Below, in pieces: positions 13,937 to 29,627 of a stretch of DNA of 48,368 bases (position 1 is its first letter; each line of letters begins with the position of its first letter). The stretch lies in contig JAJTBZ010000096.1 of the NCBI GenBank assembly GCA_021286645.1, positions 1 through 48,368 of the forward strand. The letters run 5' to 3'. Made by a program: the position numbers and the translations under genes. This DNA is from Ignavibacteria bacterium (GTDB lineage: Bacteria > Bacteroidota > Ignavibacteria > Ignavibacteriales > Ignavibacteriaceae). The notes under the pieces were generated by a model, which saw only the letters and a list, made by a program, of their open reading frames with translations, was not told where the DNA came from and searched no databases.

Positions 13937-13943
13937 ATATTAA

Positions 13944-13968
13944 GACGCCTGGATTTTGAAAAGGTTCC
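13944..13968 (-). promoter_or_regulatory. Predicted ECF-sigma autopromoter (GGAAC - N16 - CGTC)
   Basis: On the minus strand GGAAC (13968-13964) and CGTC (13947-13944) are separated by 16 bases, matching the well-known GGAAC-N16/17-CGTC pattern of ECF promoters. The -10 element ends only 7 bases before the ATG at 13936-13934. A transcript starting 5-8 bases downstream would have almost no 5' leader. The functional assignment is inference from motif and position. Confidence 0.65.
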
Positions 13969-14060
13969 ACAAAAAATACTACAAAATACAAACCCAAATA
14001 GTTTCTTTTGGCTAATTATGACAAACGGAAAATTGCTTTGATAATTGGGAAATTATTTTA

Positions 14061-14105
14061 TAAAAAAAATCCTGCCAGGAGAATAGTGAACTCAAGTGGC
14101 AGGAC
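14061..14105 (-). terminator. Rho-independent terminator of the three-paralogue surface gene run
   Basis: An 8-bp perfect stem (TCCTGCCA at 14070-14077 with TGGCAGGA at 14097-14104) is followed on the minus strand by an A/T tract containing eight T. It lies about 30 bases after the stop of the secreted protein at 14133. Confidence 0.75.
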
Positions 14106-14132
14106 TTTCAATTATGGTTTTTATACCCGAGT

Positions 14133-15629
14133 TTACTTCAAATACATCATTTTTTTTGTTACTGTACCGGAATGAGTGCGAAGGCTGTAAAAATACACTC
14201 CGCTTGCCATATTCCCGGCAGTAAACACTATTCGAAAATTCCCTTTTTTTTGCATACCATCAAATAACGTTGCGACTTCCCGACCCATAACATCATAAAT
14301 TTTTAGACTTGCCTCGCCATCATACGGAAGGGTTACCTGAATGGTAGTACTCGGATTAAACGGATTTGGATAATTTTGATCTAATTGGAATTCATGAGCC
14401 GTAACCGGAGTTTTTTCATGAATAACATAATCGGTATAATAACCGAATCTTGTATTGCAGGTAATTGTTAGCGCGTTAAGAAGGAAAAACTTATGAGAAA
14501 GGCTATCCGGCCCTTCGTTATTCAAATAAGCCACACCGCCATTTACCGTCTCTACCCCCGGATAATAAACCCCATATTTGTAGGAAACATCGCCCATGGG
14601 GGTATTTTTAGGAAAAAGTATGGTGGTACGGTATATCTTATCACGCGCAGGCTTATCAGTTAGAGTTTTCATTTTACTTGTGCCCCTCCAGCGCCCTACG
14701 GTATCTTCCAAGGTCCATTTTCCACCCCAGCTGCCAAGTGTAGTATTACTACCCATGATTCCGACAAATTTTATACTGTCGGTATTTATGGCAGTATTGG
14801 TGTACCTGTTAATGGGCTGATTTGACATATCACAATTAAATTCAACATATACATCCGCAGTCAGGGTACCAAAACAAGTTAAATTGGGCACAATTTCCGG
14901 TACTGAAATCGTGCTTCCATCCTGTCCATACACTACCCACCTGTCCGCCCCCGATTCCCATCCGGCATTCGCGAAATCTATATCAGGGTAAGCTTTGAAT
15001 TTCCAGGCTGTAGAATCACCAAAATATCCTTTTACCGTCACTGAAGTTCTAAAGCGATGAACAGGGGAAGTAATCTCTGACATTTTCCGTTTACCACTAA
15101 TTATGGTGCCATTACCGTTTAAATCCAGCCCCGTAATTAGTAATGAATCTTTAGAGGGATCGAAAAATCCTTTGCCGTATCCATAAAATTCGCGCATATC
15201 TGCCGTAAAGATAAAGGTATTTGAAACAGACTGTGGTACAAGTGAATCATTTGAAAAATAACAGACCGGTAAAACTTGTGTGCCGCTGCCAGATAAAGTA
15301 AATGAGCGGGGCAAAGCATTTTCTTTGGCAGTACCATTCTTCACGAAATTAAAATGGAATACTGTTCCTGCCGAGGTTAACGGGAAAGAAACCGTAGCAG
15401 TATATATCGAATCATTGTCCGGATCAGAAAGCCTAAATTTTCGTCCACTCCAATTTCCGGTGTCACCGGCAGCAACCTGAAAGTCGCCTTGTATAAACAA
15501 GCTATCCTTAAGCAGATCAAATTTGCCCTTATACATCTGGTTTTTCATGTTTACCTGAAAAGAAACAGGAATAGTACCAGCCAAAAGCAAAGTAGATACA
15601 AGATAAATGAGGATTGATGATTTAATCAT
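14133..15629 (-). CDS. Secreted T9SS protein with three starch-binding-like modules (paralogue A)
   Basis: This is a 498-residue exported protein with a signal peptide at 1-17. It has three tandem beta-sandwich-like modules (about 20-128, 135-255, 262-395). Each opens with an F-x-V/C/A-[ND]-M-type strand and carries Gly/Trp and Asp-rich signatures (GNWSGRKF, DPDNDSIYTAT, KFKAYPDIDF, FVGIMGSNTTLGSW, YKYGVYYPG). A canonical T9SS type A C-terminal domain occupies about 415-498 (QNYPNPFNPSTTIQV, LKIYDVMGREVATL, ASGVYFYSL). The module pattern resembles CBM20/CBM48-like starch-binding domains, which is inference. It shares architecture with the next two genes but is the most diverged copy. No catalytic domain is seen. 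Confidence 0.85.
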   Translation of the reverse strand: MIKSSILIYLVSTLLLAGTIPVSFQVNMKNQMYKGKFDLLKDSLFIQGDFQVAAGDTGNWSGRKFRLSDPDNDSIYTATVSFPLTSAGTVFHFNFVKNGTAKENALPRSFTLSGSGTQVLPVCYFSNDSLVPQSVSNTFIFTADMREFYGYGKGFFDPSKDSLLITGLDLNGNGTIISGKRKMSEITSPVHRFRTSVTVKGYFGDSTAWKFKAYPDIDFANAGWESGADRWVVYGQDGSTISVPEIVPNLTCFGTLTADVYVEFNCDMSNQPINRYTNTAINTDSIKFVGIMGSNTTLGSWGGKWTLEDTVGRWRGTSKMKTLTDKPARDKIYRTTILFPKNTPMGDVSYKYGVYYPGVETVNGGVAYLNNEGPDSLSHKFFLLNALTITCNTRFGYYTDYVIHEKTPVTAHEFQLDQNYPNPFNPSTTIQVTLPYDGEASLKIYDVMGREVATLFDGMQKKGNFRIVFTAGNMASGVYFYSLRTHSGTVTKKMMYLK

Positions 15630-15665
15630 GGATTTCTCAGCCTTAGAATAATTGCCACACTGTTA

Positions 15666-15694
15666 ATTATCGTATAATAAAGTTAAGAAAACAA
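15666..15694 (-). promoter_or_regulatory. Possible sigma-70-like promoter for paralogue A
   Basis: On the minus strand TTGTTT (15694-15689) and GATAAT (15671-15666) are spaced by 17 bases, about 37 bases upstream of the ATG at 15629 and downstream of a terminator. It fits a generic housekeeping promoter, but the region is AT-rich and promoter rules in this phylum may differ. Confidence 0.3.
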
Positions 15695-15731
15695 GGGCGT
15701 ATTACAAAACCTTATACCGATTCAGAGCAAT

Positions 15732-15765
15732 AAAAAAAGCCCGCAACTTATTCAGCGCGGGCTTC
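15732..15765 (-). terminator. Rho-independent terminator after paralogue B (duplicated element)
   Basis: The stem AAGCCCGC (15737-15744) pairs with GCGGGCTT (15757-15764) around a 12-base interval, and a run of A on the plus strand gives the T tract on the minus strand. The core is identical to the terminator at 17401-17434, so gene and terminator were duplicated together. Confidence 0.85.
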
Positions 15766-15786
15766 TTGAAAATTACGCGAAGGTAA

Positions 15787-17292
15787 TTATTTCATTAACA
15801 TCATTTTGCGGGTAATTGAAACATTACCGGCTTCTAGTCTGTAGAAATATACACCACTTGCCATACCATAACCGTTAAAGGTAACTTTCACCTTACCTGG
15901 TTTCTGAACACCACTGATCAATGTTGTTACTTCCTGACCCATAATGTTATAGATTTTCAAGCTTACATTACCTTCTTTAGGGATAACTACATTAAATGTT
16001 GTTGTCGGGTTGAACGGGTTGGGATAGTTTTGTTCAAGAACAAAATCTATAGTCTTTGCAGGGAGTGGACGATATTCTGCCACATCGACAAAGGTACCAA
16101 ATCTATCTGACAATGTAATCAATTCAGCGGGGAAAAAAGTAAAACGGTGCCCACCGCCAGGTGCGAATTCATTATCTAGATAAGCAGAAGTTACACCAAC
16201 GGTATCATCTGTATAATGACATCCATATTTGTATTCAATAATACCGCCTTGTGAATAAATGGGCCAAATAATTTTTTTTGAATATATTTTATCGTTAGCA
16301 GTTATATCGCCATCTAATCCTTTATCGTTAAGCACGATCATTTTAGCAGTATCACCGCCAATTGTGTCTGTAGTTACCCAATTACCAGCCCAGTTACCAA
16401 TAGGTTTGGCTCCGCCCTTTACTCCAACAAAAAGAATTTTGTTAGGGTCGAAAATCACATTGGTTTTAGCATTTATTGGGTTCTTACCCATATCAACCTG
16501 AAATAATACAGGGACCGGAAAAGAAGTTACTGCTATAGGGTTTAATTCAGGCCAAATTTCGGGTACCATTACAGTATCACCATCACTTCGATATTTCACC
16601 CATCTATTATCACGTATCTCCCATCCACTATTTAAGTAATACACATCAGGGAATGCCTTCAATTTGAAGCTTGTTGAATCAGATTCAAATCCCCTGACAA
16701 CTAGAGTTGTTCTGAATCTCTTAACAGGTATAGGAATTTCATGTAATTTTCGGTTACCTGAAATGATTGTACCCTGATTATCCCAATCCAAGCCCATAAC
16801 TAGCAACGAGTCACGATTTGGATTAAAGTAACCATCACCTGTACCAAAGAGAGAACGCATGTCAACAGTAAATACAAAAGTATTTGTTACTAATTGTTTA
16901 TTTATTGAATCATTGGAAAAGTAGAGTACTGGTAAAATCTGAACGGGTGCATTCTTCAACGTGAACGTTCTATTCGGCCCAGTCTCCCAGCTATTATCTT
17001 TCTTTACAAATTTGAATGAAAATGATGAATCTATCCATGTGGCTGGTATACTAGCAGTTACCGTATAAATAGAGTCATTATCTCCATCTTCCATTTTATA
17101 TGTAAATCCTGCCCAATTCATTGCATCACCAGCAGGTAATTGAAAGCTCCCTCGTGCGAATATAGAATCGGTTGATTTATTAAATAAACCCTTTTGTATT
17201 TGAACCTTCATATTCACACGGAAAGTAACGGAAACTTGACCGGCAAAAATTGTGAGGATAAAAAAATTAATTAACAGAAGTACTTTTTTCAT
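15787..17292 (-). CDS. Secreted T9SS protein with three starch-binding-like modules (paralogue B)
   Basis: This 501-residue protein starts with a signal peptide (about 1-17). Module 1 (about 20-130) has FRVNMKVQIQKGLF, MEDGDNDSIYTV and FKFVKKDNSWETGPNR. Module 2 (about 135-255) has DPNRDSLLVMGLDWD and KAFPDVYYLNSGW. Module 3 (about 262-395) has VLFQVDMGKNPIN, VGVKGGAKPIGNWAGNW and MIVLNDKGLDGD. The T9SS C-terminal domain (about 412-501) has QNYPNPFNPTTTFNV and SGVYFYRLEAG. The conserved aromatic and Asp/Asn positions are those expected of a glycan-binding beta-sandwich, but binding is inferred. The last 90 residues differ from paralogue C at only a few positions, so the pair is a recent tandem duplicate. 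Transfer to the cell surface through T9SS is expected. Confidence 0.87.
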   Translation of the reverse strand: MKKVLLLINFFILTIFAGQVSVTFRVNMKVQIQKGLFNKSTDSIFARGSFQLPAGDAMNWAGFTYKMEDGDNDSIYTVTASIPATWIDSSFSFKFVKKDNSWETGPNRTFTLKNAPVQILPVLYFSNDSINKQLVTNTFVFTVDMRSLFGTGDGYFNPNRDSLLVMGLDWDNQGTIISGNRKLHEIPIPVKRFRTTLVVRGFESDSTSFKLKAFPDVYYLNSGWEIRDNRWVKYRSDGDTVMVPEIWPELNPIAVTSFPVPVLFQVDMGKNPINAKTNVIFDPNKILFVGVKGGAKPIGNWAGNWVTTDTIGGDTAKMIVLNDKGLDGDITANDKIYSKKIIWPIYSQGGIIEYKYGCHYTDDTVGVTSAYLDNEFAPGGGHRFTFFPAELITLSDRFGTFVDVAEYRPLPAKTIDFVLEQNYPNPFNPTTTFNVVIPKEGNVSLKIYNIMGQEVTTLISGVQKPGKVKVTFNGYGMASGVYFYRLEAGNVSITRKMMLMK

Positions 17293-17400
17293 ATAAGCCC
17301 CAAATTATTCTTATTCAGCTTTTATTTTCACCACAAGAGGAAAATACCAATAATATTTTTATTTTCAAAGCTCCTCTTAACTACCAGTATTTTAAAAAGC

Positions 17401-17434
17401 AAAAAGCCCGCAACTTATTCAGCGCGGGCTTTTT
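17401..17434 (-). terminator. Rho-independent terminator after paralogue C (duplicated element)
   Basis: An 11-bp stem, AAAAAGCCCGC (17401-17411) with GCGGGCTTTTT (17424-17434), has a 12-base loop. Its core sequence, including the loop, is shared with the terminator at 15732-15765. Confidence 0.88.
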
Positions 17435-17453
17435 GGAAATTACGCGAAGGTAA

Positions 17454-18959
17454 TTATTTCATTAACATCATTTTGCGGGTAATTGAAACATTACCGGCTT
17501 CTAATCTGTAGAAATAAACACCACTTGCCATACCGTAACCGTTAAAGGTAACTTTCATTGTTCCTGGTTTCTGTACGCCACTGATCAATGTTTCGACTTC
17601 CTGACCCATAATGTTATAGATCTTCAAGCTTACGTTGCCTTCTTTAGGTATAACTACATTAAATGTAGTTGTCGGGTTGAACGGATTTGGATAGTTCTGT
17701 TCAAGAACAAAATCTACAGCCTTTGCAGGAAGTGGATTATATTCAACTGAACGAACGAAGCAGCCAAATCTGTCTGATAATGTAATCAATGTAGCAGGAG
17801 CTAACTGGAAGAAGTGGTTCTGACCAAATCCGCCTTCGTTATCGAGGAAAGTAGATGTTACACCAACGGTGTCACCAGTATAATGGCAACCATATTTATA
17901 TTCAATTTTACCGCCCTGTGAATTTGCAGGCCATGTAATTTTCTTTGAATATACTTTATCATTAGCAGTAACGTCGCCATTTAATCCTTTATCGTTAAGA
18001 ACGATCATTTGAGCAGTATCCCCGCCAATAGTATCAGCAGTTACCCAGTTACCAGCCCAGTTACCAATAGGTTTCGAGCCACCCTTAACACCAACGAATT
18101 GAATTTTGGTAGGATCGAAAATAACACTGGTTTTAGCGTTCATCGGGCTCTTACCCATATCAACCTGGAATAATACAGGGATAGGAGTAGTTGTTATAAC
18201 TGAAGGAGATAAATCAGGAACGATTTCCGGAATTGTAACAGTGCCGCCATCAGCAACATATTTTACCCAACGATCCTGGCCTAATTCCCAACCGCTGTTA
18301 TTGTAATGAGCATCGGGATAAGCTTTGAATTTGAAACGGGTAGAATCGCCTAAAGAACCTTTAATAACTAAAGAGGTTTTAAATCTCTTTACCGGTGAAG
18401 GAACTTCTTTACATTTTCTGTCACCAGAAACATATGTACCTAAGTTATCCCAATCCATACCCATAACTAATAATGAGTCACGATTTGGATCGAAGTAACC
18501 ATCACCAGTACCGTAGAAAGAACGCATGTCAGCGGTAAAGTTAAAGGTATTGGATACAGTAGGTTTATAAACAGAATCATTTGAGAAATAATAAACAGGT
18601 AAAATCTGATTTACTACGTTCTGCAGTTTGAAAGTTCTGTTTGGATCTGGTTCCCAACCATTGTCATTCTTTACGAATTTGAATAAGAAGGTAGAGTCAA
18701 CCCAAGTAGTAGGAATGTTCGCGTTAACTGTGTAGATAGAGTCATTATCGCCATCAGTCAATTTGAATTTATAACCACTCCAGTCACCAGCATCGCCAGC
18801 AGGAGTTTGGAAGTTTCCACGAACACAAATACTGTCTGTGGCCTTGTTGAATAAGCCCTTCTGAAGCTGAATTTTCAAATTTACGCGGAAAGTAACCTGT
18901 ACATTTCCTGCAAATGCGAAAACGCTGAGAAGGACAACAGCCAGTAGAAGCTTTTTCAT
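17454..18959 (-). CDS. Secreted T9SS protein with three starch-binding-like modules (paralogue C)
   Basis: This 501-residue protein has the same plan as paralogue B: a signal peptide (MKKLLLAVVLLSVFAFA), three modules of roughly 110-130 residues (FRVNLKIQLQKGLF, DGDNDSIYTVNAN and NGWEPDPNRTF; DPNRDSLLVMGMDWD and NNSGWELGQDRWVKY; VLFQVDMGKSPMN and PIGNWAGNWVTADTIGGD), and a T9SS C-terminal domain with QNYPNPFNPTTTFNV. The ATG at 18959 is chosen over the in-frame ATG at 18971 because GAGG lies five to six bases before it, overlapping the upstream codon, and because it gives a standard signal peptide. It follows the PorV-like gene by 58 bases and could share its transcript. Confidence 0.87.
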   Translation of the reverse strand: MKKLLLAVVLLSVFAFAGNVQVTFRVNLKIQLQKGLFNKATDSICVRGNFQTPAGDAGDWSGYKFKLTDGDNDSIYTVNANIPTTWVDSTFLFKFVKNDNGWEPDPNRTFKLQNVVNQILPVYYFSNDSVYKPTVSNTFNFTADMRSFYGTGDGYFDPNRDSLLVMGMDWDNLGTYVSGDRKCKEVPSPVKRFKTSLVIKGSLGDSTRFKFKAYPDAHYNNSGWELGQDRWVKYVADGGTVTIPEIVPDLSPSVITTTPIPVLFQVDMGKSPMNAKTSVIFDPTKIQFVGVKGGSKPIGNWAGNWVTADTIGGDTAQMIVLNDKGLNGDVTANDKVYSKKITWPANSQGGKIEYKYGCHYTGDTVGVTSTFLDNEGGFGQNHFFQLAPATLITLSDRFGCFVRSVEYNPLPAKAVDFVLEQNYPNPFNPTTTFNVVIPKEGNVSLKIYNIMGQEVETLISGVQKPGTMKVTFNGYGMASGVYFYRLEAGNVSITRKMMLMK

Positions 18960-18962
18960 ATT

Positions 18963-18971
18963 GTACCTCAT
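18963..18971 (-). promoter_or_regulatory. Ribosome binding site deciding the paralogue C start
   Basis: The minus strand reads ATGAGGTACAATATG. The GAGG core is well spaced for the second ATG (18959), which begins an ideal signal peptide. The first ATG (18971) would make the Shine-Dalgarno sequence part of the coding region and has no such element of its own. Confidence 0.6.
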
Positions 18972-19017
18972 AATTTAGTTAGTAGAGTTAGTAAATATAA
19001 TGCACCTTGCATTGAAA

Positions 19018-20025
19018 TTAAAATCCTATTGTCACAGAAATTTTAGAAATTGCATCAAAACGTTTCATAGTGTTGTAGCTGTAATCAACTTTGGTAAAAT
19101 AACCGCCAAAATCGTATTTTAAGCCTACACCGCCGCAGAAACCTTCTTCAGCATCTTCTTTGAATAATGAATTCCAGCCGGCACGAACCGCGAACATATC
19201 ATTCCAAACAAGTTCACCACCTACATTAAGGTACGATGATTGATTATTCGGATAAACCGCGTCAACGTCCGTTGAAATCTGCCAGTTTTCATTCTTTATT
19301 ACTTCGTAACCTAAACCAACCGTAAACACCAATGGCAAAGGCCAGGTATCGGTATCAAGGCTGCCGGAGATATTTTCGTTATGCCCCGATGAAGCCTTAT
19401 GGTCAATATCAACAATTACTTTAGTGTCTTTACCTTCCAGCTGCATATCCGTACCAAAGTTCGCGATATTCATGCCGATAGAGAGACCTTTTAATTGTGT
19501 GTGGAATAACAACCCAATGTCCATGGCGAAAGCAGACGCGCTCATATGATAGATCTGCTGGCGTATGTATTTTACCGTAGCGCCAACAGAAAACCGGTCG
19601 GTCAGGTTTTTGGCATATGTCAACCCAAGACAAATATCCTGTGCATCCCACCTGTCACCTGTTCCATTCGGGTTTTCTACAGTTGTTACATCTTCTTCAC
19701 CATAATCTAACTGATTAAGACTTAATCCAATAGCATCATTATCTGAAAGCTTATAAACCAGACCAAACCAGTTAAAATGAGTTCCTACCAACCATTCAGA
19801 AAAGCTGGCAGTAAATTCGTTTTTATCGATCCGGGATATTGCACCCGGGTTCCAATAAATCGCACTTGCATCACTGCCTGTAGCAGCGAAGGCACCACCC
19901 ATACCTGTGGCTTTAGGGCCAACAGGTATGGTTAAAAAGTTAGCTGCAGTTGTACCAATTTTGGACTGAGCAAAAACTGATTGCATGGCTGCAAGAACGA
20001 TGATAAGATAAATATACTTTTTCAT
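19018..20025 (-). CDS. PorV/PorQ-family outer-membrane beta-barrel protein
   Basis: This 335-residue protein has a signal peptide (about 1-19, ending FAQS). The family N-terminal block includes ANFLTIPVGPKATGMGGAF, followed by SDASAIYWNPGAIS, as in PorV/PorQ (UPF0164-type) proteins linked to type IX secretion. Alternating hydrophobic strands continue to a terminal VTIGF, ending in Phe as outer-membrane barrels do. PorV works as the shuttle that delivers sorted T9SS cargo to the surface attachment complex. This copy sits between a TonB receptor operon and three T9SS cargo genes, so it may be a dedicated, locus-specific partner. The assignment to PorV rather than PorQ or a FadL-like relative is not certain. 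Confidence 0.85.
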   Translation of the reverse strand: MKKYIYLIIVLAAMQSVFAQSKIGTTAANFLTIPVGPKATGMGGAFAATGSDASAIYWNPGAISRIDKNEFTASFSEWLVGTHFNWFGLVYKLSDNDAIGLSLNQLDYGEEDVTTVENPNGTGDRWDAQDICLGLTYAKNLTDRFSVGATVKYIRQQIYHMSASAFAMDIGLLFHTQLKGLSIGMNIANFGTDMQLEGKDTKVIVDIDHKASSGHNENISGSLDTDTWPLPLVFTVGLGYEVIKNENWQISTDVDAVYPNNQSSYLNVGGELVWNDMFAVRAGWNSLFKEDAEEGFCGGVGLKYDFGGYFTKVDYSYNTMKRFDAISKISVTIGF

Positions 20026-20044
20026 ATTTTACTCCTGCATCCCA

Positions 20045-23000
20045 CTATTTAATAATCGCAATTTTACCGGTTTTCTTGTCACTGAAGCCCTGTGCTTCAA
20101 CAACATAGAAGTAAACACCGAAGGCAACATCAAGACCTTCTCTCGTACGCAAATCCCAATCCAATGTACTGTTAAAGAGATCTGAACCGGTTTCAAGTGT
20201 GCGAATCAAAGTACCGCTTGAAGTATAAATATAAACCTTCGCATTTATCGGGAGGTTCATAAATTTAATTACTCGGGTACCCCTGCCACGTAAACCTGAA
20301 GGTAATGGTGGTTCATATAAGTTTGTCACAACATACGGGTTTGGAACAACTTTAATATCATTCATTTTCGATTTTGCGGTAAACAGATCATAGTATGCCT
20401 GCTTCGTATTGATAATGAAAGCATCCTGTGATGTTAACGGAACAGTAAAGCCTATCCGTAAAGTATCACCAGCTTTTGGTGAGTAAACCGGAAGGTTCTT
20501 CACGTTCGAGGAAAATGTAACCATATACTCAATATCCGTTCCTGCAGCATTGCTCAGGAATATACGGCTATCGGGTGTAACAGTTGTATCTGTAGGATCT
20601 GCCTGCATAAATGCAAATTTGATCTTCTTAGGTGATTTCACATCAGTAACATCCCATATAGAGAAGTTAATTTTTGGTACGAAAGCAACAGAATCAAATC
20701 CACCTTTAATAAATAATTTATTTAAGGTATCAATTGCGTACGATGATTGTTTCGCCTGATTTTCAAATCTGAATTCATATTTCTTCGGGGCACGGTATAC
20801 CGGATAATTTGGAGTAAACCATGTAATGGAATACTGTGTTGATGCGATTGGAGTAAATTTACCAACCGTATCTTTAACATTTGTAAGATTCCAGAATATG
20901 GTATCTACCTGAATGTAATTTGGCGATTTCCAGCTGCTATCCATCTTAATAGCTAAACCACTGAAAATCTGGCCGTCCCTTGCATCAAAATAGGTTCCAT
21001 CTGTTAATAGATAATTTTTCGTAACCGTATCCTGAATGCTATAGCTTACAGCAACCGGTCCCTGCATTACAGAATCTTTGGTACCATAAGCTACCGGTAT
21101 ATATTTATCCTTAAAGGTTACTTTAAGAACACCACTTGGCACACGTTTCGAATCAACAATGCTGAACGTAGGAGCATGGTCGCTACCGCCTGAAACACGA
21201 GTTACATTATCGTTTCCGGTAGGTGCAACATATCCATTTGAAGGCGGGGCCGGAATAACTGCCAGGGCATTCTTTTCAAATGTGTATGTACCATACGCAT
21301 CACGAGAAATTGCACCCTGAATAGAATTTTCTTTCGGGTATGTCATACCATCATTTTTTCCATGATCATACGCGGTAAGGCAATAGAAATACTTTAACCC
21401 GGGTTTTACATCTGTATCAACATATTTATGAACTATACCACGGTCATCACCCAAAAATGGTGAGAAACCATTGTATAAAGAAGCTAACATCGGGCTTAAT
21501 GCATAGAAACCTGTAATGCTGTTCGCCAAATCCCATTGTTGGATTTCTTTGTATGCAACGGCATTGCCGCGAGCATCGGTTACAGTAAATACATCAGAGA
21601 AATCATATGAATTACTCTTATATAATTTGTAACCTTCAAAATCTTTTTCATGAGTTATATGGTCAATAGAAGCTTCAGCTTCTGCATCCCAATACAATGT
21701 AACTGATTTACCATCTGTCGAAGCAGACAATGTTGGTGTTGAAGGAGGTAACGGGAACGTATAGTTCGCGTTATAAATAATCTGTACAACTTTTTTAATA
21801 CGCATTACGTCTGCAAGGTTTTCGCCAAATGCCAACGCGAGTGAGAAGCGTTCAGTTGCCTTCGATAATAACGGGAAGTAGCCGGTTCCATATAGGAAGT
21901 CACCGTCTTCACCGCGAATTGCAATGTTATTCACGATGTTATCAGGTGTTTCGAACAAACCGGGTGTCATCTGACTCCAGGTTAATTCATCATCAGCCAT
22001 TTTTACCGTGCCTGCACCTTTAAAGTACTTGAACGATGTAAGGCCAAGCTGATCTGATTCATGAATATCTTTTTCGTCAAAGTTAGGCTCGCCATGTGTA
22101 GGAATACCATCTCCCTCACCCGGATCGTGAGTATTAGCTTTACCATCTTTACCTACGTCATCAAGCAACGTCCAGTCAAGATCATTATCAATATTATCAT
22201 CACGACGCTCATCAACCATTTGTGCTTTGGTCATTCCATGTAAATAATCGATGTATTGTGTTGCGTTAATAGTATCAATAAGTGTAACGCCTGCTGCTGA
22301 TTTTTTGAATTGGCGATAATGAACAGTATAATTCTCGTCAATTATACCATCCAAATCGTTATCTATTCCATCATATGCATTCGGGTTTACATAACTACCG
22401 TTTAATCCCATTTTCAGGTCACCTTCTACTAAAACTGTCTGACCCGAAACGAGATTCATTATCGTACCCATTGATTTTACAGTTACATTATCTCCCTTAA
22501 CGGTAATAACTGTATCCGGTTTTGTCAATGAGTTATCAACAATAACACCATCAGTTGTTGGAACTGTATATAATGTTCTCTTAAATGTTTCCTTGTTTAT
22601 CAGAACGACCTTGTCACCTTTCGTAAATACCCGACCGACAAAATCGTTAGGTGTAAAGAATGGTGCTGTTGATGCAAACTGCGAGTTATCATGGTCATTA
22701 TCTATACCATCGTAACCGTTGCCCGGCGATTCCAGAAAAGCATAAGCAATATAACCGACAGTATGCGGATCGGGAAGCCAACGCGGGTTAGCAGCCGGAT
22801 CAATATAATTATCATAATCCCATGTATAGGTGATTGATTCTTTAATTTCAAAGAATGAAGCATCATCATCATATTCACGGCCTTCAATACCAACATAAGT
22901 ACCTACCAACAAACCGAACACCGCTTTGTCATATGTAGTAGTACCATCATTTTGAATATTGTATAACCAGAACAGTACATTCTGTGCAACCGGGTCACCG

Positions 23001-23725
23001 CCCCATTGCAAACCGCGTACACTTACCTGAATACCCTGGCCTCTACGAGCAGGATCTGTGGAGTCAGGAGTGAATCCTAATTTACCGAAATAGGTAATAT
23101 CATCATTATCATCCATCCAGTAATAGCTTTCCTGGGTAGGTGATTTTTCACGTCCCCGGCCAAAATAACCATTCCAGTCTACTTTTGGGATATAGCCATC
23201 TTTATCGCCATGGGCTTCAGTAAAACCAGTATAATCCGGTTTATCCGGCCAAACCATTGGCCAGGATTTTAATAAATGACTCATCGCGACGCCGTAGGTA
23301 GCTCCGGTATATGCTGGATTAAAAAATCCTCCGATAGGTTCAAAACCAGAGAACTGGCCTGAGACTTCTTTACCTCCACCCGGGCGTTCAACCGCGGTAA
23401 TGATACTTACATGGTGAGTATCCAATACTGCGTTGTTTGTATCTTTCGGATAATGTTTTATCGGGAGCTGTAACCCAATAATAGGAGAAACATCACCCAC
23501 ATAACCATTATTATCGTACTTCCATGCACCACGGGGGTTCAACGTGGATGGTTGTGCAATAACACCATAGTTCGTGAAAACCGTATGAACCAAATTACCA
23601 TTATGCAGACCAACTCTACGATTAAGAATCGATCCGCGTGAGGTAATCGGCGTTTCCTGAGCCTGCATAAACTCAGGAATTAACACGAAACCAATCATTA
23701 ATAAAAATAAAAGTCTTTTACTCAT
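20045..23725 (-). CDS. Large exported surface protein with Asp-rich calcium-binding-like repeats, Fn3 segment and T9SS-like C terminus
   Basis: This 1226-residue protein has a signal peptide (about 1-22). The N-terminal part (about 30-330) is a family I do not recognise. Two DGIDND-type Asp-rich segments (about 355 and 452) and a third variant (about 505-550) resemble calcium-binding thrombospondin type 3-like loops. A fibronectin type III-like region is seen near 705-790 (PPSTPTLSASTDGKSVTLYW). The C terminus (about 1120-1226; VVPNPYV, KFMNLPINAKVYIYTSSG, FGVYFYVVEAQG) matches the T9SS type A sorting-domain pattern, with VPNPYV instead of QNYPNPFNP. It lies 21 bases after the TonB receptor gene and 19 before the PorV-like gene. 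The inferred role is a receptor-associated surface protein, possibly the functional counterpart of SusD. Confidence 0.8.
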   Translation of the reverse strand: MSKRLLFLLMIGFVLIPEFMQAQETPITSRGSILNRRVGLHNGNLVHTVFTNYGVIAQPSTLNPRGAWKYDNNGYVGDVSPIIGLQLPIKHYPKDTNNAVLDTHHVSIITAVERPGGGKEVSGQFSGFEPIGGFFNPAYTGATYGVAMSHLLKSWPMVWPDKPDYTGFTEAHGDKDGYIPKVDWNGYFGRGREKSPTQESYYWMDDNDDITYFGKLGFTPDSTDPARRGQGIQVSVRGLQWGGDPVAQNVLFWLYNIQNDGTTTYDKAVFGLLVGTYVGIEGREYDDDASFFEIKESITYTWDYDNYIDPAANPRWLPDPHTVGYIAYAFLESPGNGYDGIDNDHDNSQFASTAPFFTPNDFVGRVFTKGDKVVLINKETFKRTLYTVPTTDGVIVDNSLTKPDTVITVKGDNVTVKSMGTIMNLVSGQTVLVEGDLKMGLNGSYVNPNAYDGIDNDLDGIIDENYTVHYRQFKKSAAGVTLIDTINATQYIDYLHGMTKAQMVDERRDDNIDNDLDWTLLDDVGKDGKANTHDPGEGDGIPTHGEPNFDEKDIHESDQLGLTSFKYFKGAGTVKMADDELTWSQMTPGLFETPDNIVNNIAIRGEDGDFLYGTGYFPLLSKATERFSLALAFGENLADVMRIKKVVQIIYNANYTFPLPPSTPTLSASTDGKSVTLYWDAEAEASIDHITHEKDFEGYKLYKSNSYDFSDVFTVTDARGNAVAYKEIQQWDLANSITGFYALSPMLASLYNGFSPFLGDDRGIVHKYVDTDVKPGLKYFYCLTAYDHGKNDGMTYPKENSIQGAISRDAYGTYTFEKNALAVIPAPPSNGYVAPTGNDNVTRVSGGSDHAPTFSIVDSKRVPSGVLKVTFKDKYIPVAYGTKDSVMQGPVAVSYSIQDTVTKNYLLTDGTYFDARDGQIFSGLAIKMDSSWKSPNYIQVDTIFWNLTNVKDTVGKFTPIASTQYSITWFTPNYPVYRAPKKYEFRFENQAKQSSYAIDTLNKLFIKGGFDSVAFVPKINFSIWDVTDVKSPKKIKFAFMQADPTDTTVTPDSRIFLSNAAGTDIEYMVTFSSNVKNLPVYSPKAGDTLRIGFTVPLTSQDAFIINTKQAYYDLFTAKSKMNDIKVVPNPYVVTNLYEPPLPSGLRGRGTRVIKFMNLPINAKVYIYTSSGTLIRTLETGSDLFNSTLDWDLRTREGLDVAFGVYFYVVEAQGFSDKKTGKIAIIK

Positions 23726-23746
23726 TTCATTAATTCCTGTTTTATA

Positions 23747-26509
23747 CTAAAAAGAGAACTTGGCACCGAACTCAACGCGGCGAGGTTCGGAGTACCAATC
23801 CGGACGTTTATAGTAATCCTGAACTGTATTGATAATATCGGGGCGGGCACCTATAGAATTTTTAATATTAATTGTATAGCCTGCACGACCGCTGTCACTA
23901 TAAACATCATATTCGTTTTCTTTATCAAACAAGTTAAATACACGTAAGAAGAAACCGAGCTTATAGCTGCCTAATTGAAAATCTTTATATGCCTTAAAAT
24001 CGACATTAAAAAATCCGGGTTTAGTTTCCGCGTTGGTTAACAAATCAGAAATATTCATTGATTGACTTGGTGTATATGGGAAACCACTACCATACTGAGC
24101 AATAAAGCTAAAGCCCCACAGATCAGATGATTCATAATTAAACGTGATATTTAACGTATGAGTCTGATCCTGTCCTAATTTAATAATTTGCATTTCAGGT
24201 AACTGACCGTTCTGTACCTGATTAAAACTGGTTTTTGGATCGGTTGCATTACCTTTTGCCGACTGCAATGTATAATCCAAAGAAGCTGACCAATTGTTAG
24301 TTAAGCGTTTATTAATCGAAACAATAATACCACGCACAAAACCGAAATCGCTATTTGAATATTGCGCGTAGGTGCTCGTACCACCATACATCTGAATTAC
24401 TGCGCTGCTTGTTCCAACCAGATTTCTGATATCACGGAAGTAACCTGTTAAATCCATTGATATATCATCGGAAAGAGCAGTCTGCAAACCAACTTCACCA
24501 CTAATTGTCGATTCAGGCTTTAGATCCGGGTTACCCGCGATACGGCCGTTCAGACCTGTGCTGTGATCCATCTTATAGTTTGGATTCGTGAAGAGGAGTT
24601 CAAAACTGGGGATTTGGAAAAAGTGACCGTAAGAGAAGTGTACAACAGATTTATCGGTAATGGGGAAAGCTACACCAAGACGAGGGCTAAACTGGTGCTT
24701 AACTGTTGGTGATTTATACCAATATGTATAGCGTTGAGACAGAGAAACTGCTGTATCACTATTATTCGGGTTACGTGGCAGCATGATATCAGGATCTGTA
24801 GGATCATTTAAAATATATCCATCAGATTTGAAATAATCATAACGAATACCGACGTTAACAATCATTTCGTTTAATTCGATTTTATCTTGCAGATAAGCAG
24901 AAAATTCCGTTGGTTTTCTTGAATAAACATCATAACGCAGATAATCGGCCGGATTGTTTTGGTCCGGAACAATTAATTTAACATAAGGATTGCCACCGCC
25001 AACTACCAAACGAGGATCTGCTACATCAAGAGCCTGATAAGGTGTTATATCAGAATAATCTAATTTATGCGAATTAAATTCGAAACCACCTTTAATTTGG
25101 TGTATAGGAGTAACTTGCGATGTTAAATCGAATTTCACGCCAACCATACCGGTAGAACGTGAGAAATGTTGAGTCTTAATACCACCGGTATGGAAGCTAT
25201 AAATATAATAGTCATCCATTAAGACCGAGTTGACATAATTTGGATCTGTCATCGATTCATATGCATAATGGTAGTATTTTTTGTAGATATACGATAAGTT
25301 TAATTGATAAAACGTATTGCTGCCGAGGGTGTGAGTAAGTCCCAAAATATTCGTATTACTTTCTCTATGACGTTTAAAATCACCATCGGGTGCAAGCTGC
25401 ATCAGATAATCATAATCTCTGTATTGAACTCTCTCATACAGATAATTAAATGAAAGTTTCATGGTAGGAATAATCTTCCAGGTAACTTTTCCCTGCCCAT
25501 TAACTTTTTCATTAAAGTTCATCGAGATTATTTTATGATCGCCATCGCGATTAACAATCCATTGAATTGAACTGTTTGCAGGGTAATCAGGATTCTTCCA
25601 AATTACGTTATACGGGTTAAAAGCACGTTCGCCTTTTAACCAGCCATCAAAATAGATATAACGCAAATTTGTATAGAAAGTGAGTTTATCTGCAATAATA
25701 GGGCCGCTAAAAGAACCTTCCAGATTTCTGATAGCAAGCGGGTTAACCTTATCAACGGCACGGAATAAATCAGTATGATTACTGACATTATCACCGATAT
25801 AGGCTAAAACCTGTCCCGCGTATTTATTATCACCATCTTTTGTAGCGATATTTACATAACCGGAAAGAGCCTTACCGTATTCAGCATTGAACGCGCCAGA
25901 AACGAATTGCAACTCCTGAATTGAGTTTGCATTCACATCTATAACAGAAGAGCCGTCATAAACGTCTGTTACTGGAACGCCATCGATGGCATAAACAACT
26001 TCACCGGCACGGCCACCGCGGACTTTACCGCCAACCATACCAGCTTTTAATTTCAACACATCCTGAAATTCGGTAACCGGTAACGCAGCAATATCTTCAG
26101 CGCCAACAATAGCTGTTGATGCAGTAAGATCTTTTGTAACCAAAGGCCGTTCAGCAACCACTACCACTTCTTTGCTGAGTTGAAGTGTCGCATCAGACAA
26201 CTTAAAATCAACCTTCGCGGTAAGATCTATAGAAACTCGAACATTGGAAACTGCGCTTGGGCTAAAACCGATAGCAGAAGCTTTAATTGTGTACGTCCCG
26301 GGTCGGACATTGAGGATTGAATAATAACCATCGACATCTGTCGCAGCGCCTTGTTTGGTTCCTTCAATAACTACATTCACAAAGGGCAAACCTTCACCGG
26401 TTTTAGAATCGGTAATTCTACCGGCGATTTTACCTGATTGTGCAAAAAGTACTTGTGGAACTACAATAAAGGCAAAGAACAGTAATAAGCCTCGTAGCTT
26501 AGAACTCAT
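23747..26509 (-). CDS. TonB-dependent receptor with N-terminal carboxypeptidase-regulatory-like domain
   Basis: This 920-residue outer-membrane transporter has a signal peptide (about 1-23, ending FAQ), a carboxypeptidase-regulatory-like beta-sandwich (about 26-105; GRITDSKTGEGLPFVNV, YTIKASAIGFSPS), a possible TonB box (KEVVVVAERP, about 114-123), a plug domain (about 125-235; VYAIDGVPV, FNAEYGKALSGYVNIAT) and a 22-strand-type barrel to the terminal AKFSF. The layout is the SusC-like type, although no SusD homologue follows. It uses ATP-independent TonB energy to import large substrates. GGAGG lies 4 bases before the ATG. It is the first gene of a run through the large surface protein and PorV-like barrel. 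Confidence 0.93.
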   Translation of the reverse strand: MSSKLRGLLLFFAFIVVPQVLFAQSGKIAGRITDSKTGEGLPFVNVVIEGTKQGAATDVDGYYSILNVRPGTYTIKASAIGFSPSAVSNVRVSIDLTAKVDFKLSDATLQLSKEVVVVAERPLVTKDLTASTAIVGAEDIAALPVTEFQDVLKLKAGMVGGKVRGGRAGEVVYAIDGVPVTDVYDGSSVIDVNANSIQELQFVSGAFNAEYGKALSGYVNIATKDGDNKYAGQVLAYIGDNVSNHTDLFRAVDKVNPLAIRNLEGSFSGPIIADKLTFYTNLRYIYFDGWLKGERAFNPYNVIWKNPDYPANSSIQWIVNRDGDHKIISMNFNEKVNGQGKVTWKIIPTMKLSFNYLYERVQYRDYDYLMQLAPDGDFKRHRESNTNILGLTHTLGSNTFYQLNLSYIYKKYYHYAYESMTDPNYVNSVLMDDYYIYSFHTGGIKTQHFSRSTGMVGVKFDLTSQVTPIHQIKGGFEFNSHKLDYSDITPYQALDVADPRLVVGGGNPYVKLIVPDQNNPADYLRYDVYSRKPTEFSAYLQDKIELNEMIVNVGIRYDYFKSDGYILNDPTDPDIMLPRNPNNSDTAVSLSQRYTYWYKSPTVKHQFSPRLGVAFPITDKSVVHFSYGHFFQIPSFELLFTNPNYKMDHSTGLNGRIAGNPDLKPESTISGEVGLQTALSDDISMDLTGYFRDIRNLVGTSSAVIQMYGGTSTYAQYSNSDFGFVRGIIVSINKRLTNNWSASLDYTLQSAKGNATDPKTSFNQVQNGQLPEMQIIKLGQDQTHTLNITFNYESSDLWGFSFIAQYGSGFPYTPSQSMNISDLLTNAETKPGFFNVDFKAYKDFQLGSYKLGFFLRVFNLFDKENEYDVYSDSGRAGYTINIKNSIGARPDIINTVQDYYKRPDWYSEPRRVEFGAKFSF

Positions 26510-26941
26510 AGTGCCTCCGAACTAATGTGAAATATGCTAACTAAAAGTAATACTAAAATATAATAGCAATCTAATTTAGTTAGTTTGCTTATCGTGAGCA
26601 AGTGTTAATTTTCCGAGTACGTTTTCGCCTAAATTAATAAGGCCTCAGAAATTATTCCCTAATTTTTTTCAGATGAGGGGTGCGCTAATTTTCATGATTA
26701 ATTTGTTGTTTCAACCAACTATTAATTTAATTGGAAATTTGACCCGTTTTACAAATTTTTGCATAAATCGCAAAACTGTTTCTTTGTAATATCACCTGTT
26801 TTAATAAACTGCCGAATGTGGAAAAATACGTCCCGTTATTTATTTTTCTCGAAATATCTGAGTATTTTACCAATGTATTTTTTTAACTATTTTGTACTTT
26901 TATCAAAAAAAACGTTAAGTAATCCAGATTGAGGAGATAAA
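26510..26941. promoter_or_regulatory. 432-base divergent intergenic region between the TonB receptor and malQ
   Basis: This AT-rich spacer has no convincing ORF. It must contain promoters for both directions. Visible elements are GGAGG (26514-26518) for the receptor, GAGGAG (26931-26936) for malQ, and a 9-bp inverted repeat CTAACTAAA/TTTAGTTAG (26537-26545 and 26575-26583) in the leader or promoter of the receptor. I could not identify an unambiguous -10/-35 or Bacteroidetes-type -7/-33 pair. Confidence 0.5.
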
Positions 26942-28459
26942 ATGAAATTTCAAAGAAGTGCAGGTATACTCTGCCATCCTACTTCCTTTCCCGGCCGATA
27001 TGGAATCGGTGACCTGGGACCGGATGCATACCGATTTATCGATTTCCTGGAGAGTGCGGGTCAGAGCATTTGGCAGGTTTTTCCCCTGGGCCCTACCGGC
27101 TACGGCGATTCTCCGTACCAGTGCTTTTCTGCTTTCGCTGGCAATCCCCTATTGATCAGTCCCGATTTATTACTTCAGGATGGATTACTACATGAGCGCG
27201 ATTTGGAATTTATTCCGCCCAGCAATCCGACTTGCATTGATTTTGGCCATTTAATAAACTTCAAAAATCACTTGCTTCGGGTAGCTTATGAGCACTACAA
27301 AAAGAATAATGATACTAATTTGCAGGAATTAGTTTCTGCGTTTGGGAAAAAGCAGAAATTCTGGCTGGATGATTATTCTCTCTTTATGGCTGTAAAGAAC
27401 CATTTTAATGGCCGTTTGTGGACATCCTGGGATGAAGATATTGCCCTGCGTAAACGTGGCGCGATTAAAGAATGGCGAACAAAACTCGAAGATGAAATTC
27501 AATTTCAGGTATTTACCCAATACCTTTTCTTTACCCAATGGAAGAAATTACGTGAATATACGAACAATAAGGGTATTAAAATTATTGGAGATTTGCCAAT
27601 TTTTATTGCTTATGACAGCGCGGATCTTTGGGCAAATAAAGATCTGTTTACCGTGGATGAACAGGGTAAATTGCTAACAGTAGCAGGCGTTCCGCCGGAT
27701 TATTTTAGCCCCACAGGCCAATTATGGGGTAACCCTCTTTACCGGTGGGACAGAATGGCTGAAGACGATTACCTTTGGTGGCAGCGGCGCTTTAGCAGCA
27801 CACTTGAAATGGTAGATATTATTCGTATTGATCATTTCCGTGGATTTGAAGCATATTGGCAAATTCCCGGTGATGCCCTAACGGCAGAAACTGGTCGTTG
27901 GGTTAAAGCCCCGGGGAAACGTTTTTTCCGCACGATGCTTAATAAATTAGGCGATATTCCTATCCTTGCTGAAGATTTGGGATTGATTACTCCCGAAGTA
28001 GAAGAACTGCGTGATCACTTCAATTTCCCCGGTATGAAAATCCTCCAGTTCGCATTTGGCGCTAACATGGAAAAGAAATTTTTACCCCATAATTTTGTTC
28101 AGAACTGTGTTGTCTATACCGGCTCGCATGATAATGATACAACCCGTGGGTACTTTGAAAAAGTGAAGCATGAACCAAATGATATTTTTTCGTTCACGCA
28201 GCAATATCTTAATTACTATGGTGATGATATTTGCCCTGAACTTATCCGTTTAGCGTACGAATCGGTTGCCAATATTGTTATCATCCCAATGCAGGATATA
28301 CTGAATTTAGGGTCAGAGGCCAGAATGAATTTCCCTGGCAGACTGGGTGGAAACTGGACCTGGCGCTTTACCTGGGACAGGATTCCTCATTACATGCACG
28401 AGAGATACAAATATATGTGTTACCTGTATCAACGCGGTCCGGCATATCAACAGAAATAA
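26942..28459 (+). CDS. malQ: 4-alpha-glucanotransferase (amylomaltase, GH77)
   Basis: This cytoplasmic enzyme transfers alpha-1,4-glucan chains between maltodextrins and releases glucose. The 505-residue product is the standard short GH77 form. Clear family blocks are GRYGIGDLG, QVFPLGPTGYGDSPYQ, GDLPIFIAYDSADLWANKD, VAGVPPDYFSPTGQLWGNP, RIDHFRGFEAYW (nucleophile Asp), PILAEDLG (acid/base Glu) and GSHDNDTTRGYF (third Asp). A strong GAGGAG lies 5 bases upstream of the ATG. It is the only plus-strand gene in the window and diverges from the surface-protein locus, which supports an alpha-glucan theme there. It may equally serve glycogen metabolism. Confidence 0.96.
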   Translation: MKFQRSAGILCHPTSFPGRYGIGDLGPDAYRFIDFLESAGQSIWQVFPLGPTGYGDSPYQCFSAFAGNPLLISPDLLLQDGLLHERDLEFIPPSNPTCIDFGHLINFKNHLLRVAYEHYKKNNDTNLQELVSAFGKKQKFWLDDYSLFMAVKNHFNGRLWTSWDEDIALRKRGAIKEWRTKLEDEIQFQVFTQYLFFTQWKKLREYTNNKGIKIIGDLPIFIAYDSADLWANKDLFTVDEQGKLLTVAGVPPDYFSPTGQLWGNPLYRWDRMAEDDYLWWQRRFSSTLEMVDIIRIDHFRGFEAYWQIPGDALTAETGRWVKAPGKRFFRTMLNKLGDIPILAEDLGLITPEVEELRDHFNFPGMKILQFAFGANMEKKFLPHNFVQNCVVYTGSHDNDTTRGYFEKVKHEPNDIFSFTQQYLNYYGDDICPELIRLAYESVANIVIIPMQDILNLGSEARMNFPGRLGGNWTWRFTWDRIPHYMHERYKYMCYLYQRGPAYQQK

Positions 28460-28466
28460 CTTATAT

Positions 28467-28499
28467 AAAAATGGCGCCTTAAAAGCGCCATTTTTTTTT
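28467..28499. terminator. Bidirectional Rho-independent terminator between malQ and the convergent exonuclease gene
   Basis: The stem ATGGCGC (28471-28477) pairs with GCGCCAT (28485-28491). It has an A tract before it and nine T after it, so it can act on transcripts from both sides. It ends right at the stop codon of the minus-strand gene. Confidence 0.88.
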
Positions 28500-28500
28500 G

Positions 28501-29187
28501 CTAAAATTTCAGGAGTTGCTCCCATTTAGAATACAATTGATATGTAGCGAAAATATCTCGCGCGCAATAAGAGGCAACCTCTTTAATTCGTCCGGCTTCG
28601 TAAAGAGCCTGTACTTCCATACCGGTAACCCCCTTTGATTTCGGAGATTCGATACCAAATGCATGACAATAGAAATCCAGATTAAAAACTTTTGTAGTTT
28701 TGTAATAAGATAGCTGCTCAAGTAAATCAATATGCCGTGAATTATCATACCTATTCCCAAGAAAATTCTTACGTGGGCGTATCCCCAATAATGCTGATCT
28801 GAGCATCAGAAACGGGATATCAAAACCTCGTCCATTAAATGTAATAAGCTGATCAATTTTATCGGTATAGTCCCAAAATTTCTGTAGAAGTTCTTTTTCG
28901 GGTAACCCCTTAAATGTATTTCCTTCGCTTACCCATTTTTCTTCTTCAGGTTCAGACTCATACCAGACAAAAGCAGATTGCTTTTCAACAGAGTACATTC
29001 CCAATACAACCACTTTAGCCGTAAAAGGATACAGGCTCATCATGCGAATAGATTCTTCAATCTTTAATTGTTTTAAATCCTGATCTTCAATTTTTTCAGC
29101 TTCACGCAGGAGATATTCCTGTTGACTTTCGGATAATTCTTCAAAATCAATGTGCGCGGTTTCTATATCTACAACAACACGATTCAT
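28501..29187 (-). CDS. Predicted DEDDy 3'-5' exonuclease (ribonuclease H-like fold)
   Basis: This 228-residue protein has the exonuclease pattern: D7 and E9 in VVVDIET, a second Asp in FNGRGFDIPFL (about 124), and the Tyr-x3-Asp motif in SYCARDIFATY (about 208-212). That combination defines the DEDDy proofreading-type class. It matches small stand-alone proteins annotated as PolB-like or YprB-type exonucleases, whose substrate is generally unknown. It overlaps the thioesterase gene by 4 bases (ATGA) as the last gene of the threonine aldolase operon, with no obvious functional link to it. Confidence 0.85.
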   Translation of the reverse strand: MNRVVVDIETAHIDFEELSESQQEYLLREAEKIEDQDLKQLKIEESIRMMSLYPFTAKVVVLGMYSVEKQSAFVWYESEPEEEKWVSEGNTFKGLPEKELLQKFWDYTDKIDQLITFNGRGFDIPFLMLRSALLGIRPRKNFLGNRYDNSRHIDLLEQLSYYKTTKVFNLDFYCHAFGIESPKSKGVTGMEVQALYEAGRIKEVASYCARDIFATYQLYSKWEQLLKF

Positions 29188-29627
29188 TTATCCCTCATAA
29201 TTTGTACATCTGGTTCATATTCCACTATCGCTCGAATGAATTCTTCATCAAGCGGGGTACTTTTTCGGGTTACCGGATCAACTCGAACAATTATTCCACT
29301 GCCATCAACTATGCTTTCTCCTGTAGAAGCTTTCACCACTACATGATCAAATCCATAGGAGGAATTTTTGATAAAGCTTACCCGGTTATACACAATAAGC
29401 TCTTCATCATAATAGGCATGACCCCTGTAGTTGATTTCATTCCTAACCATGAAAAATAAACTACCATCACTAAAGATACCTCCGGGTGGAAGCAATCCGA
29501 GATGCTTGATATATTTAATCCGTGCTTCTTCAAAATAGCTAATATACACGGCGTTATTACATACTCCAAGCATATCAACCTCGTTAAAGCGCACGGTCAC
29601 ATTCATTGAGTGTTTAAATCCATCCAT
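29184..29627 (-). CDS. Acyl-CoA thioesterase, 4HBT hotdog family
   Basis: This is a 147-residue hotdog-fold thioesterase. The family signature is VRFNEVDMLGVCNNAVYISY followed by FEEARIKYI, with the conserved catalytic-type Asp in NEVD and the Asn-x2-Tyr pair. The frame is open upstream, but I chose ATG 29627 (MDGFKH) because it lies four bases after the threonine aldolase stop and gives normal family length. A longer version would start inside the aldolase gene and add non-homologous residues. The substrate is unknown; YbgC-like or fatty acyl-CoA hydrolysis is typical. Confidence 0.87.
   Translation of the reverse strand: MDGFKHSMNVTVRFNEVDMLGVCNNAVYISYFEEARIKYIKHLGLLPPGGIFSDGSLFFMVRNEINYRGHAYYDEELIVYNRVSFIKNSSYGFDHVVVKASTGESIVDGSGIIVRVDPVTRKSTPLDEEFIRAIVEYEPDVQIMRDK

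Follow-up and report, generated by a model that had tools for sequence, protein, structure and literature searches.

How do bacteria that lack the SusC/SusD pair bring polysaccharide fragments across the outer membrane? A paddy-soil metagenome study reports that susCD genes are scarce in the carbohydrate gene clusters of Ignavibacteriales and absent from those of Ca. Kapabacteria (PMC10576277), which raises the question of the import route in these bacteria. In this study, the question was approached through one locus in a window of 48,368 nucleotides, which is the whole contig JAJTBZ010000096.1 (G000:C75 in our numbering) of an Ignavibacteria bacterium (GCA_021286645.1; 3.7-Mb genome, 108 contigs, 99% complete). 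We consider it likely that the minus-strand gene run at 14133..26509 encodes a SusD-free surface capture and import system for alpha-glucans that is based on the type IX secretion system (T9SS), and that it is one branch of a family resembling polysaccharide utilization loci (PULs).

Architecture of the locus

The initial annotation described a minus-strand run of a TonB-dependent receptor, a large surface protein, a PorV/PorQ-like barrel and three paralogues with malQ diverging from it, and we found all seven open reading frames in place, with Pfam and NCBIfam in agreement. The first gene of the operon encodes the TonB-dependent receptor (TBDT; 23747..26509, 920 residues, with CarbopepD_reg_2, plug and barrel domains in Pfam), followed on the same strand by a surface protein of 1226 residues, here called BIG (20045..23725), by an outer-membrane barrel (19018..20025) and by paralogue 3 (17454..18971), paralogue 2 (15787..17292; assigned by Pfam, 74% identity to paralogue 3) and paralogue 1 (14133..15629; 47% identity). 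The first four genes are separated by 21, 19 and 46 nt, which is operon-like, and the paralogues by 161 and 157 nt, with terminator-like hairpins in between. The minus-strand hairpin 3' of paralogue 3 (17400..17435) has fully complementary arms of 12 nt and a T run in its 3' arm, the one after paralogue 2 (15734..15767) is nearly identical to it in sequence, and another was found in the folded stretch after paralogue 1 (14062..14110, coordinates counted by hand). When the 90 nt 3' of the carbohydrate-binding module (CBM) gene were folded in 16 relatives, a strong hairpin was obtained in 16/16, and in 11/16 a T run of at least five, counted by eye, lies directly at the hairpin end. Because terminator hairpins follow CBM genes both here and in the relatives, the ancestral unit was probably TBDT-BIG-PorV-CBM-terminator, and paralogues 2 and 3 look, from their sequences, like a recent duplication in which the terminator was copied along.

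Putative starch-binding modules of the paralogues

Each paralogue had been credited with three tandem modules resembling starch-binding domains, T9SS sorting and no catalytic domain. For paralogue 3, which starts with a signal peptide, the AlphaFold2 model (22 sequences, mean pLDDT 82.2, pTM 0.54) displays three beta-sandwich modules and a C-terminal domain (CTD); thus the count of three is borne out by a model for this protein, and for the other two by whole-length alignment to it only. A second-look structural alignment, which is a re-ranking of the Foldseek list only, placed chains with CBM20 domains in the first 40 of 50 rows, and the check for modules modelling as unrelated Ig-like folds thus did not speak against the proposal. 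Foldseek alone put multi-Ig proteins at the top, with cyclodextrin glucanotransferases (CGTases) and a pullulanase among the 50 rows; since whole-chain alignment is poor for a multidomain model, the second-look alignment was preferred to this ranking. Module 1 fits the CBM20 of STBD1 with maltotetraose (Z 11.8, 92/97 residues, 1.9 A) and module 3 fits CGTases and a five-domain amylase (Z 9.8-10.8; 1cyg Z 10.8, 103 aligned), while the CTD matches that of PorU with Z 7.4 among other Ig-like rows. As modelled, modules 1 and 3 of paralogue 3 have the fold of the CBM20 starch-binding domain.

Again, the sequences point in the same direction. A module-1 profile (13 rows chosen from 22) found the starch-binding domain of A. 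niger glucoamylase (1ac0) first, with E 6.5e-8, and both share WEsdpnRe. Among the 22 aligned proteins, almost no variation is seen at Lys98, Trp106 and Glu107 in module 1 or at Lys214, Trp228 and Glu229 in module 2, while Arg112 of module 1 and Lys359 of module 3 are invariant; module 1 of paralogues 2 and 3 keeps both CBM20 site residues, Lys and Trp. As whole proteins, paralogues 1, 3 and 2 score 26.1, 22.2 and 16.5 bits with CBM_20, and only paralogue 1 passes the cut-off of 23.3. The proposed export was confirmed, as Por_Secre_tail (PF18962) and TIGR04183 are above cut-off in all three paralogues (TIGR04183 43.9-45.8 bits, cut-off 23; the CTD of paralogue 3 is of type A), and no catalytic family matched any of them in Pfam at E up to 1.

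A fourth CBM20-type paralogue of 1109 residues, which has one module copy more and extends far at its C-terminus, was noticed on another contig of the genome (C65; L036, 1873-5202), and no TBDT cassette was recognised in the stretches of C65 fetched around it.

The receptor, BIG and the barrel

The TBDT lies outside the SusC/RagA family, scoring 61.6 bits with TIGR04056 against a cut-off of 368.25. The reported lack of SusD also stood, for PF14322 and PF07980 have no match in the genome, with PF12741 and PF12771 lying outside this search. The gene adjoining the TBDT, where SusD is encoded in Sus loci, is BIG, the model of which is mostly beta, unlike the helical SusD, and none of the six minus-strand proteins has a lipobox, as no Cys occurs in their first 40 residues. 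Across 146 genomes searched, our own included, SusD_RagB was detected in 34. A strong BIG match was present in 4/18 genomes in which SusD scores 100 bits or more, taken as strong, versus 69/128 of the others (p 0.021); this difference carries little weight, since the cut-offs were chosen with the lists in view and the genomes are related to one another.

The model of BIG (residues 27-1226, 51 homologues, pLDDT 80.6, pTM 0.70) consists of an N-terminal half like a super-beta-sandwich, an FN3 domain (rows of about Z 9 for model residues 631-801), further beta domains and a PorZ-like C-terminal domain. The N-terminal half fits best on the super-beta-sandwich of glycoside hydrolase (GH) 94 and GH15 proteins (8rf0, Z 18.0, 253 residues, 3.2 A), including dextran dextrinase (9ju0, Z 17.8, 260 residues) and 4zle (Z 16.9). 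Foldseek returned mostly FN3 and receptor chains, and the sole match of the BIG profile in PDB up to E 1 was FN3 at E 0.27; as no sequence match supports it, the super-sandwich is taken as a lead on fold only. This likeness would suit a BIG that is itself an enzyme related to GH15/GH94 instead of a partner of the TBDT. The catalytic residues of GH15 and GH94 enzymes are held by their (alpha/alpha)6 barrel. The model contains no such long-helix barrel, its predicted helices being mostly short; Pfam gives no enzyme match, and homologues of BIG also adjoin GH53, GH144 and GH16 enzymes, all of which makes an enzymatic BIG very improbable.

Regarding the attachment of BIG, its only NCBIfam match is the C-terminus of PorZ (NF052228, residues 1152-1226, E 3e-6, far below the whole-protein cut-off), which the structure repeats (5m11, Z 11.7 over 93 residues), and neither TIGR04183 nor PF18962 matched it in the Pfam and NCBIfam searches. 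The barrel at 19018..20025 belongs to the PorV/PorQ family (NF033709, 198.9 bits, cut-off 90; PDB PorV 6h3i, E 1.9e-9); it stays below both equivalog cut-offs, scoring higher with the PorQ model (NF033711, 117 vs 220 bits) than with that of PorV (NF033710, 84.5 vs 250 bits), and the genome holds SprA and a stronger PorV match as well. A review of the T9SS (PMC10202324) states that PorZ and PorU retain their CTDs, bound to PorQ and PorV respectively, and that genes for type B cargo usually lie in clusters with those of the cognate PorP/SprF barrels. By analogy, the BIG/PorV-like pair would fit this attachment scheme, with the barrel as the probable export or anchoring partner of BIG.

Conservation of the gene order and enzyme neighbours

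The core was found to be widely dispersed. BIG has matches at E <= 0.001 in 144/146 genomes, some of them partial, and at E <= 1e-100 in 73, and the CBM paralogue without its CTD matched 109/146. In the best 80 named loci of the scan, many from metagenome-assembled genomes, the TBDT stands directly before BIG in 70/74 loci with a gene at that place, a PorV-like gene directly after it in 67/69, and a CBM-type protein within two genes after the PorV-like gene in 41/58. The closest named relatives by BIG among these 80 are Ignavibacteriales-type records, and the order was seen in records of Ignavibacteria, Kryptoniota, Neomarinimicrobiota, KSB1, Balneola, Fermentibacteria, Cloacimonetes and Calditrichota, as well as in three single-contig genomes (G008, G020, G027) and the chromosome CP053447.1 (L196); in L204 (Calditrichota) and L212 the barrel precedes BIG. 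Because it recurs in dozens of genomes, the gene order goes beyond chance.

With reference to the enzymes, GH13, GH66 or GH77 genes lie nearby in 9/34 fetched loci of relatives and in 23/80 named loci, two samples that share some contigs. About 10 such genes in our own 3.7 Mb give an expectation of about 5% per 20 kb, against which 9/34 has p 6e-5 if the genomes are independent. GH13 occurs near the operon in five relatives' loci and in L112, and L127 has a GH66 enzyme with a T9SS-type C-terminus just below cut-off, adjoining a six-hairpin glycosidase of 899 residues. In Balneola, the core is followed by a T9SS protein with CBM48/AMPK-CBM, a LacI regulator and two GH13 genes, while L171 has a phosphorylase and GH77. 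Around the operon, some relatives also encode a sodium/solute symporter, or two response regulators together with a Reg_prop/Y_Y_Y/histidine kinase. The conserved TBDT-BIG-PorV-CBM order and these enzyme neighbours support the claim of an uptake locus.

The same observations bear on a different role, in which the paralogues adhere to or anchor the cell's own glycogen-like or exopolysaccharide glucan and the TBDT imports something unrelated. Repeated sugar-binding modules that are not catalytic, and an exopolysaccharide-type cluster at 34443-47180 of the window, would agree with it. The TBDT-BIG-PorV-CBM genes, however, form a tight unit that is kept across phyla and that in some relatives has enzymes of GH13 and GH66, a sodium/solute symporter and regulators of the sugar type as neighbours, and of all the explanations weighed here we give this one the least probability.

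Within the window itself, the only alpha-glucan enzyme is malQ (26942..28459, plus strand), a 4-alpha-glucanotransferase of GH77 (PF02446, 601 bits; TIGR00217, 389.6 > 205.65); three GH13 frames elsewhere in the genome also carry a T9SS domain. The initial annotation had linked the locus to starch partly through malQ, and this link turned out to be weak, since GH77 was found in 0/34 of the relatives' loci and in 2/80 of the named loci.

A comparison of enzyme content between named loci with and without a CBM (22/46 vs 1/34) was dropped because most loci without a CBM are cut contigs; with 6 kb required on both sides it became 16/27 versus 0/2 (p 0.19).

Paralogous cassettes and the BIG tree

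A further 40 TBDT-BIG-PorV cassettes were collected in two sets of 20. The first 20, serving as controls, included GH144-type (PF10091) enzymes in 10, GH53 in 4, GH16 in 4 and none of these in 2; in their selection loci had been passed over, at least one of them (G048:C2) for an adjoining CBM match, and a GH13 sub-family was thus missed. The second 20 had GH13-type enzymes in 6, GH53 in 2, GH144 in 1 and none in 11. Since enzymes of these four classes are present in 27/40, the cassette as such resembles the core of a polysaccharide locus. An excess of alpha-glucan enzymes among the relatives over the first 20 cassettes (9/34 vs 0/20, p 0.019) was withdrawn after all 40 had been pooled.

Comparatively, the 21 cassettes having a CBM20-type protein contain GH13 in 5, GH53 in 6 and neither in 10, and the 19 lacking one contain GH144 in 11, GH16 in 4, GH13 in 1 and none in 3, which indicates that CBM20-type proteins accompany enzymes for alpha-glucan or of GH53 and not those of GH144 or GH16.

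A FastTree analysis of 142 BIG proteins, with 59 labelled rows, distributes the four enzyme classes with 3 changes, the minimum possible. The window falls within a set of 90 rows (support 97), in which all 31 labelled rows, the window included, are alpha-glucan, and within a nested set of 62 rows (support 100) whose 23 labelled rows, again with the window, are likewise all alpha-glucan. In a smaller tree of 122 rows, all 29 alpha-glucan rows were recovered in one set of 88 rows.

Several observations weigh against alpha-glucan capture and import, and some of them also speak for an uptake system for another or a broad glycan, in which the CBM20-type modules would serve as an all-purpose T9SS scaffold at the surface with differing ligands, in the way that surface glycan-binding proteins differ among Bacteroides PULs. 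Of the 21 paralogous cassettes with a CBM20-type T9SS protein, 6 carry GH53, so that the substrate cannot be read from the fold of the modules, and CBM20-type proteins are no exclusive mark of alpha-glucan loci. No GH13, GH66 or GH77 gene lies nearby in 25/34 relatives' loci, the frequencies of 9/34 in relatives and 6/40 in paralogous cassettes do not differ significantly (p 0.26), and the comparison of named loci by CBM presence is uninformative after the 6-kb requirement. On the tree, four of the 35 alpha-glucan rows fall outside the window's set and nearer to GH53 rows, and the label of the window, which sits on a long branch (0.79-0.83), rests on malQ, whose candidacy as a conserved partner was rejected because the adjacency is not kept in relatives. 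The modules are uneven too: 6/9 have no CBM_20 match, single-module scores (19.2, 23.1 and 19.1 bits) are close to the cut-off, module 2 of paralogue 3 is barely covered by the fold comparison, and module 1 of paralogue 1 is without the site Lys and Trp. Finally, the super-sandwich match of BIG spans 252-260 residues at 7-9% identity, without sequence support. Set against the broader-glycan alternative are the CBM20 site residues that are kept, the labelled loci in the window's BIG set, all of GH13/66/77, and malQ diverging from the operon, and we regard it as unlikely. As malQ adjacency is not conserved and CBM20-like proteins also occur beside GH53, starch is likely and not proven; an alpha-glucan is the most likely substrate.

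Moreover, the proposal of an independently assembled glycan capture system was supported, and it acquired a wider frame, as the locus also belongs to a PUL-like family of cassettes. We put forward, tentatively and with confidence falling somewhat short of an even balance, that TBDT-BIG-PorV forms the core of a PUL class of its own across the Fibrobacterota-Chlorobiota-Bacteroidota (FCB) group, in which BIG would replace SusD as the extracellular lid or docking partner, as a super-beta-sandwich without the catalytic barrel of GH15/GH94, and would be anchored by a protein barrel in the manner of PorZ/PorQ and not by lipid, with copies serving alpha-glucans, beta-1,4-galactan (GH53) and the substrates of GH144 and GH16.

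Some of the cassettes deserve mention individually. L232 (3057-8585) and L243 (10879-16254) combine a CBM20-type T9SS protein, scoring 28.3 bits in L232, with a GH53 enzyme (galactanase family) that has a T9SS domain. In L235 (7221-17587), a PF10091 'glycoamylase' (GH144-type) follows the barrel and a CBM9 T9SS protein precedes the TBDT; GH144-type enzymes are present in 11/40 paralogous cassettes in total. L246 (3903-19180) contains GH16-malectin-T9SS, GH3, CBM9-T9SS and a symporter-like protein. L252 and L253 represent a second alpha-glucan cassette type, with a sensor kinase, two regulators, TBDT-BIG-PorV, a GH13-T9SS protein of 1400 residues and then a CBM20-type protein, and part of L258-L270 forms a sub-family with a BIG of about 1220 residues and a CBM20-type T9SS protein of 600-710 residues, in which enzymes of the four classes are for the most part lacking.

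Proposed mechanism and comparison with known systems

For the likely alpha-glucan system, we infer glycan binding, import, a lid or docking role for BIG, PorQ-type anchoring and regulation. The CBM20-type proteins would be exported through the T9SS by their type A sorting domains and would hold starch, glycogen or a dextran-like glucan at the surface, as SusE/SusF do in the Sus system. The bound glucan may be cut by GH13 enzymes that leave through the T9SS and are encoded at other sites in the genome, and the oligosaccharides would then pass to the TBDT with BIG as its dedicated partner, encoded right after it as SusD is after SusC. BIG, being no lipoprotein, would itself leave through the T9SS and have its PorZ-like C-terminal domain seated in the PorQ-like barrel, and malQ together with intracellular GH13 enzymes may process the imported sugars.

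The locus would work like a SusCD PUL but lacks three of its defining features, namely the SusC family, SusD and lipoproteins. Both designs have a TBDT, a dedicated partner gene and then surface glycan-binding proteins, putative ones here; some of the loci have enzymes for a single polysaccharide close by, further glycans have paralogous sets of their own, and certain loci include a sigma factor, a Reg_prop/Y_Y_Y kinase or LacI regulators. They differ in that the TBDT here is far below the SusC/RagA cut-off, the partner is beta-rich and not a helical SusD, the partner and binding proteins have T9SS-type domains and no lipobox, and a PorV/PorQ-family barrel is part of the core. SusE and SusF are surface starch-binding proteins with tandem starch-binding modules and no catalytic domain, encoded behind the importer genes. 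The paralogues share these traits and this position, whereas their modules are of the CBM20 type and T9SS sorting takes the place of a lipoprotein anchor. With PorZ-PorQ and PorU-PorV the locus shares a surface protein with a T9SS C-terminal domain, PorZ-like in BIG, and a PorV/PorQ-family barrel; here, however, the pair sits in an uptake operon behind a TBDT, the barrel is below both equivalog cut-offs, and the rest of BIG has no PorZ match by sequence. A canonical sus operon with SusC, SusD and SusE is described for Melioribacter roseus (PMC3534657), a case of related bacteria and the same proposed substrate, in contrast to the window's genome, which has no SusD_RagB; both designs hence exist among these bacteria.

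The TBDT-BIG-PorV cassette is a concrete candidate answer to how polysaccharide fragments are imported in bacteria where susCD is scarce or absent. If the proposal is true, the T9SS would be linked to nutrient import, BIG next to a TBDT and a PorV-like gene would be an annotation handle for polysaccharide loci overlooked by tools that rely on SusCD, and the retention of a surface partner by PorV-family barrels would gain a new testable case. Sister clusters that carry enzymes for other polysaccharides suggest that the locus is one variant of a wider uptake design that has drawn little notice. No description of a TBDT/PorV-like/T9SS uptake cassette was recognised in our searches of the open-licence PMC literature, which does not imply its absence in print.

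Flanking regions

The divergent region of 432 bp between the TBDT operon and malQ (26510..26941) contained no convincing operator, and a promoter scan over 13900-28520 gave 52 sites against 49 expected. A pair of an extracytoplasmic function (ECF) sigma factor and a zf-HC2 anti-sigma-like protein is encoded at 11757-13936, here downstream of the operon and beyond the hairpin, and a weakly similar sigma factor is found upstream of the operon in 7 relatives' loci. Adjoining this pair is a minus-strand run at 4449-11581 with three SpoIIE-phosphatase proteins and a HATPase_c_2 kinase. On the other side, the exopolysaccharide-type cluster comprises an FN3 protein, a polysaccharide deacetylase, a family 2 glycosyltransferase (GT2), a GDSL-like protein, an O-antigen ligase and an ABC exporter. 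The frame at 29184-29768, read from a TTG start, overlaps that at 29632-30666 by 137 bases, and an internal ATG is probably its real start.

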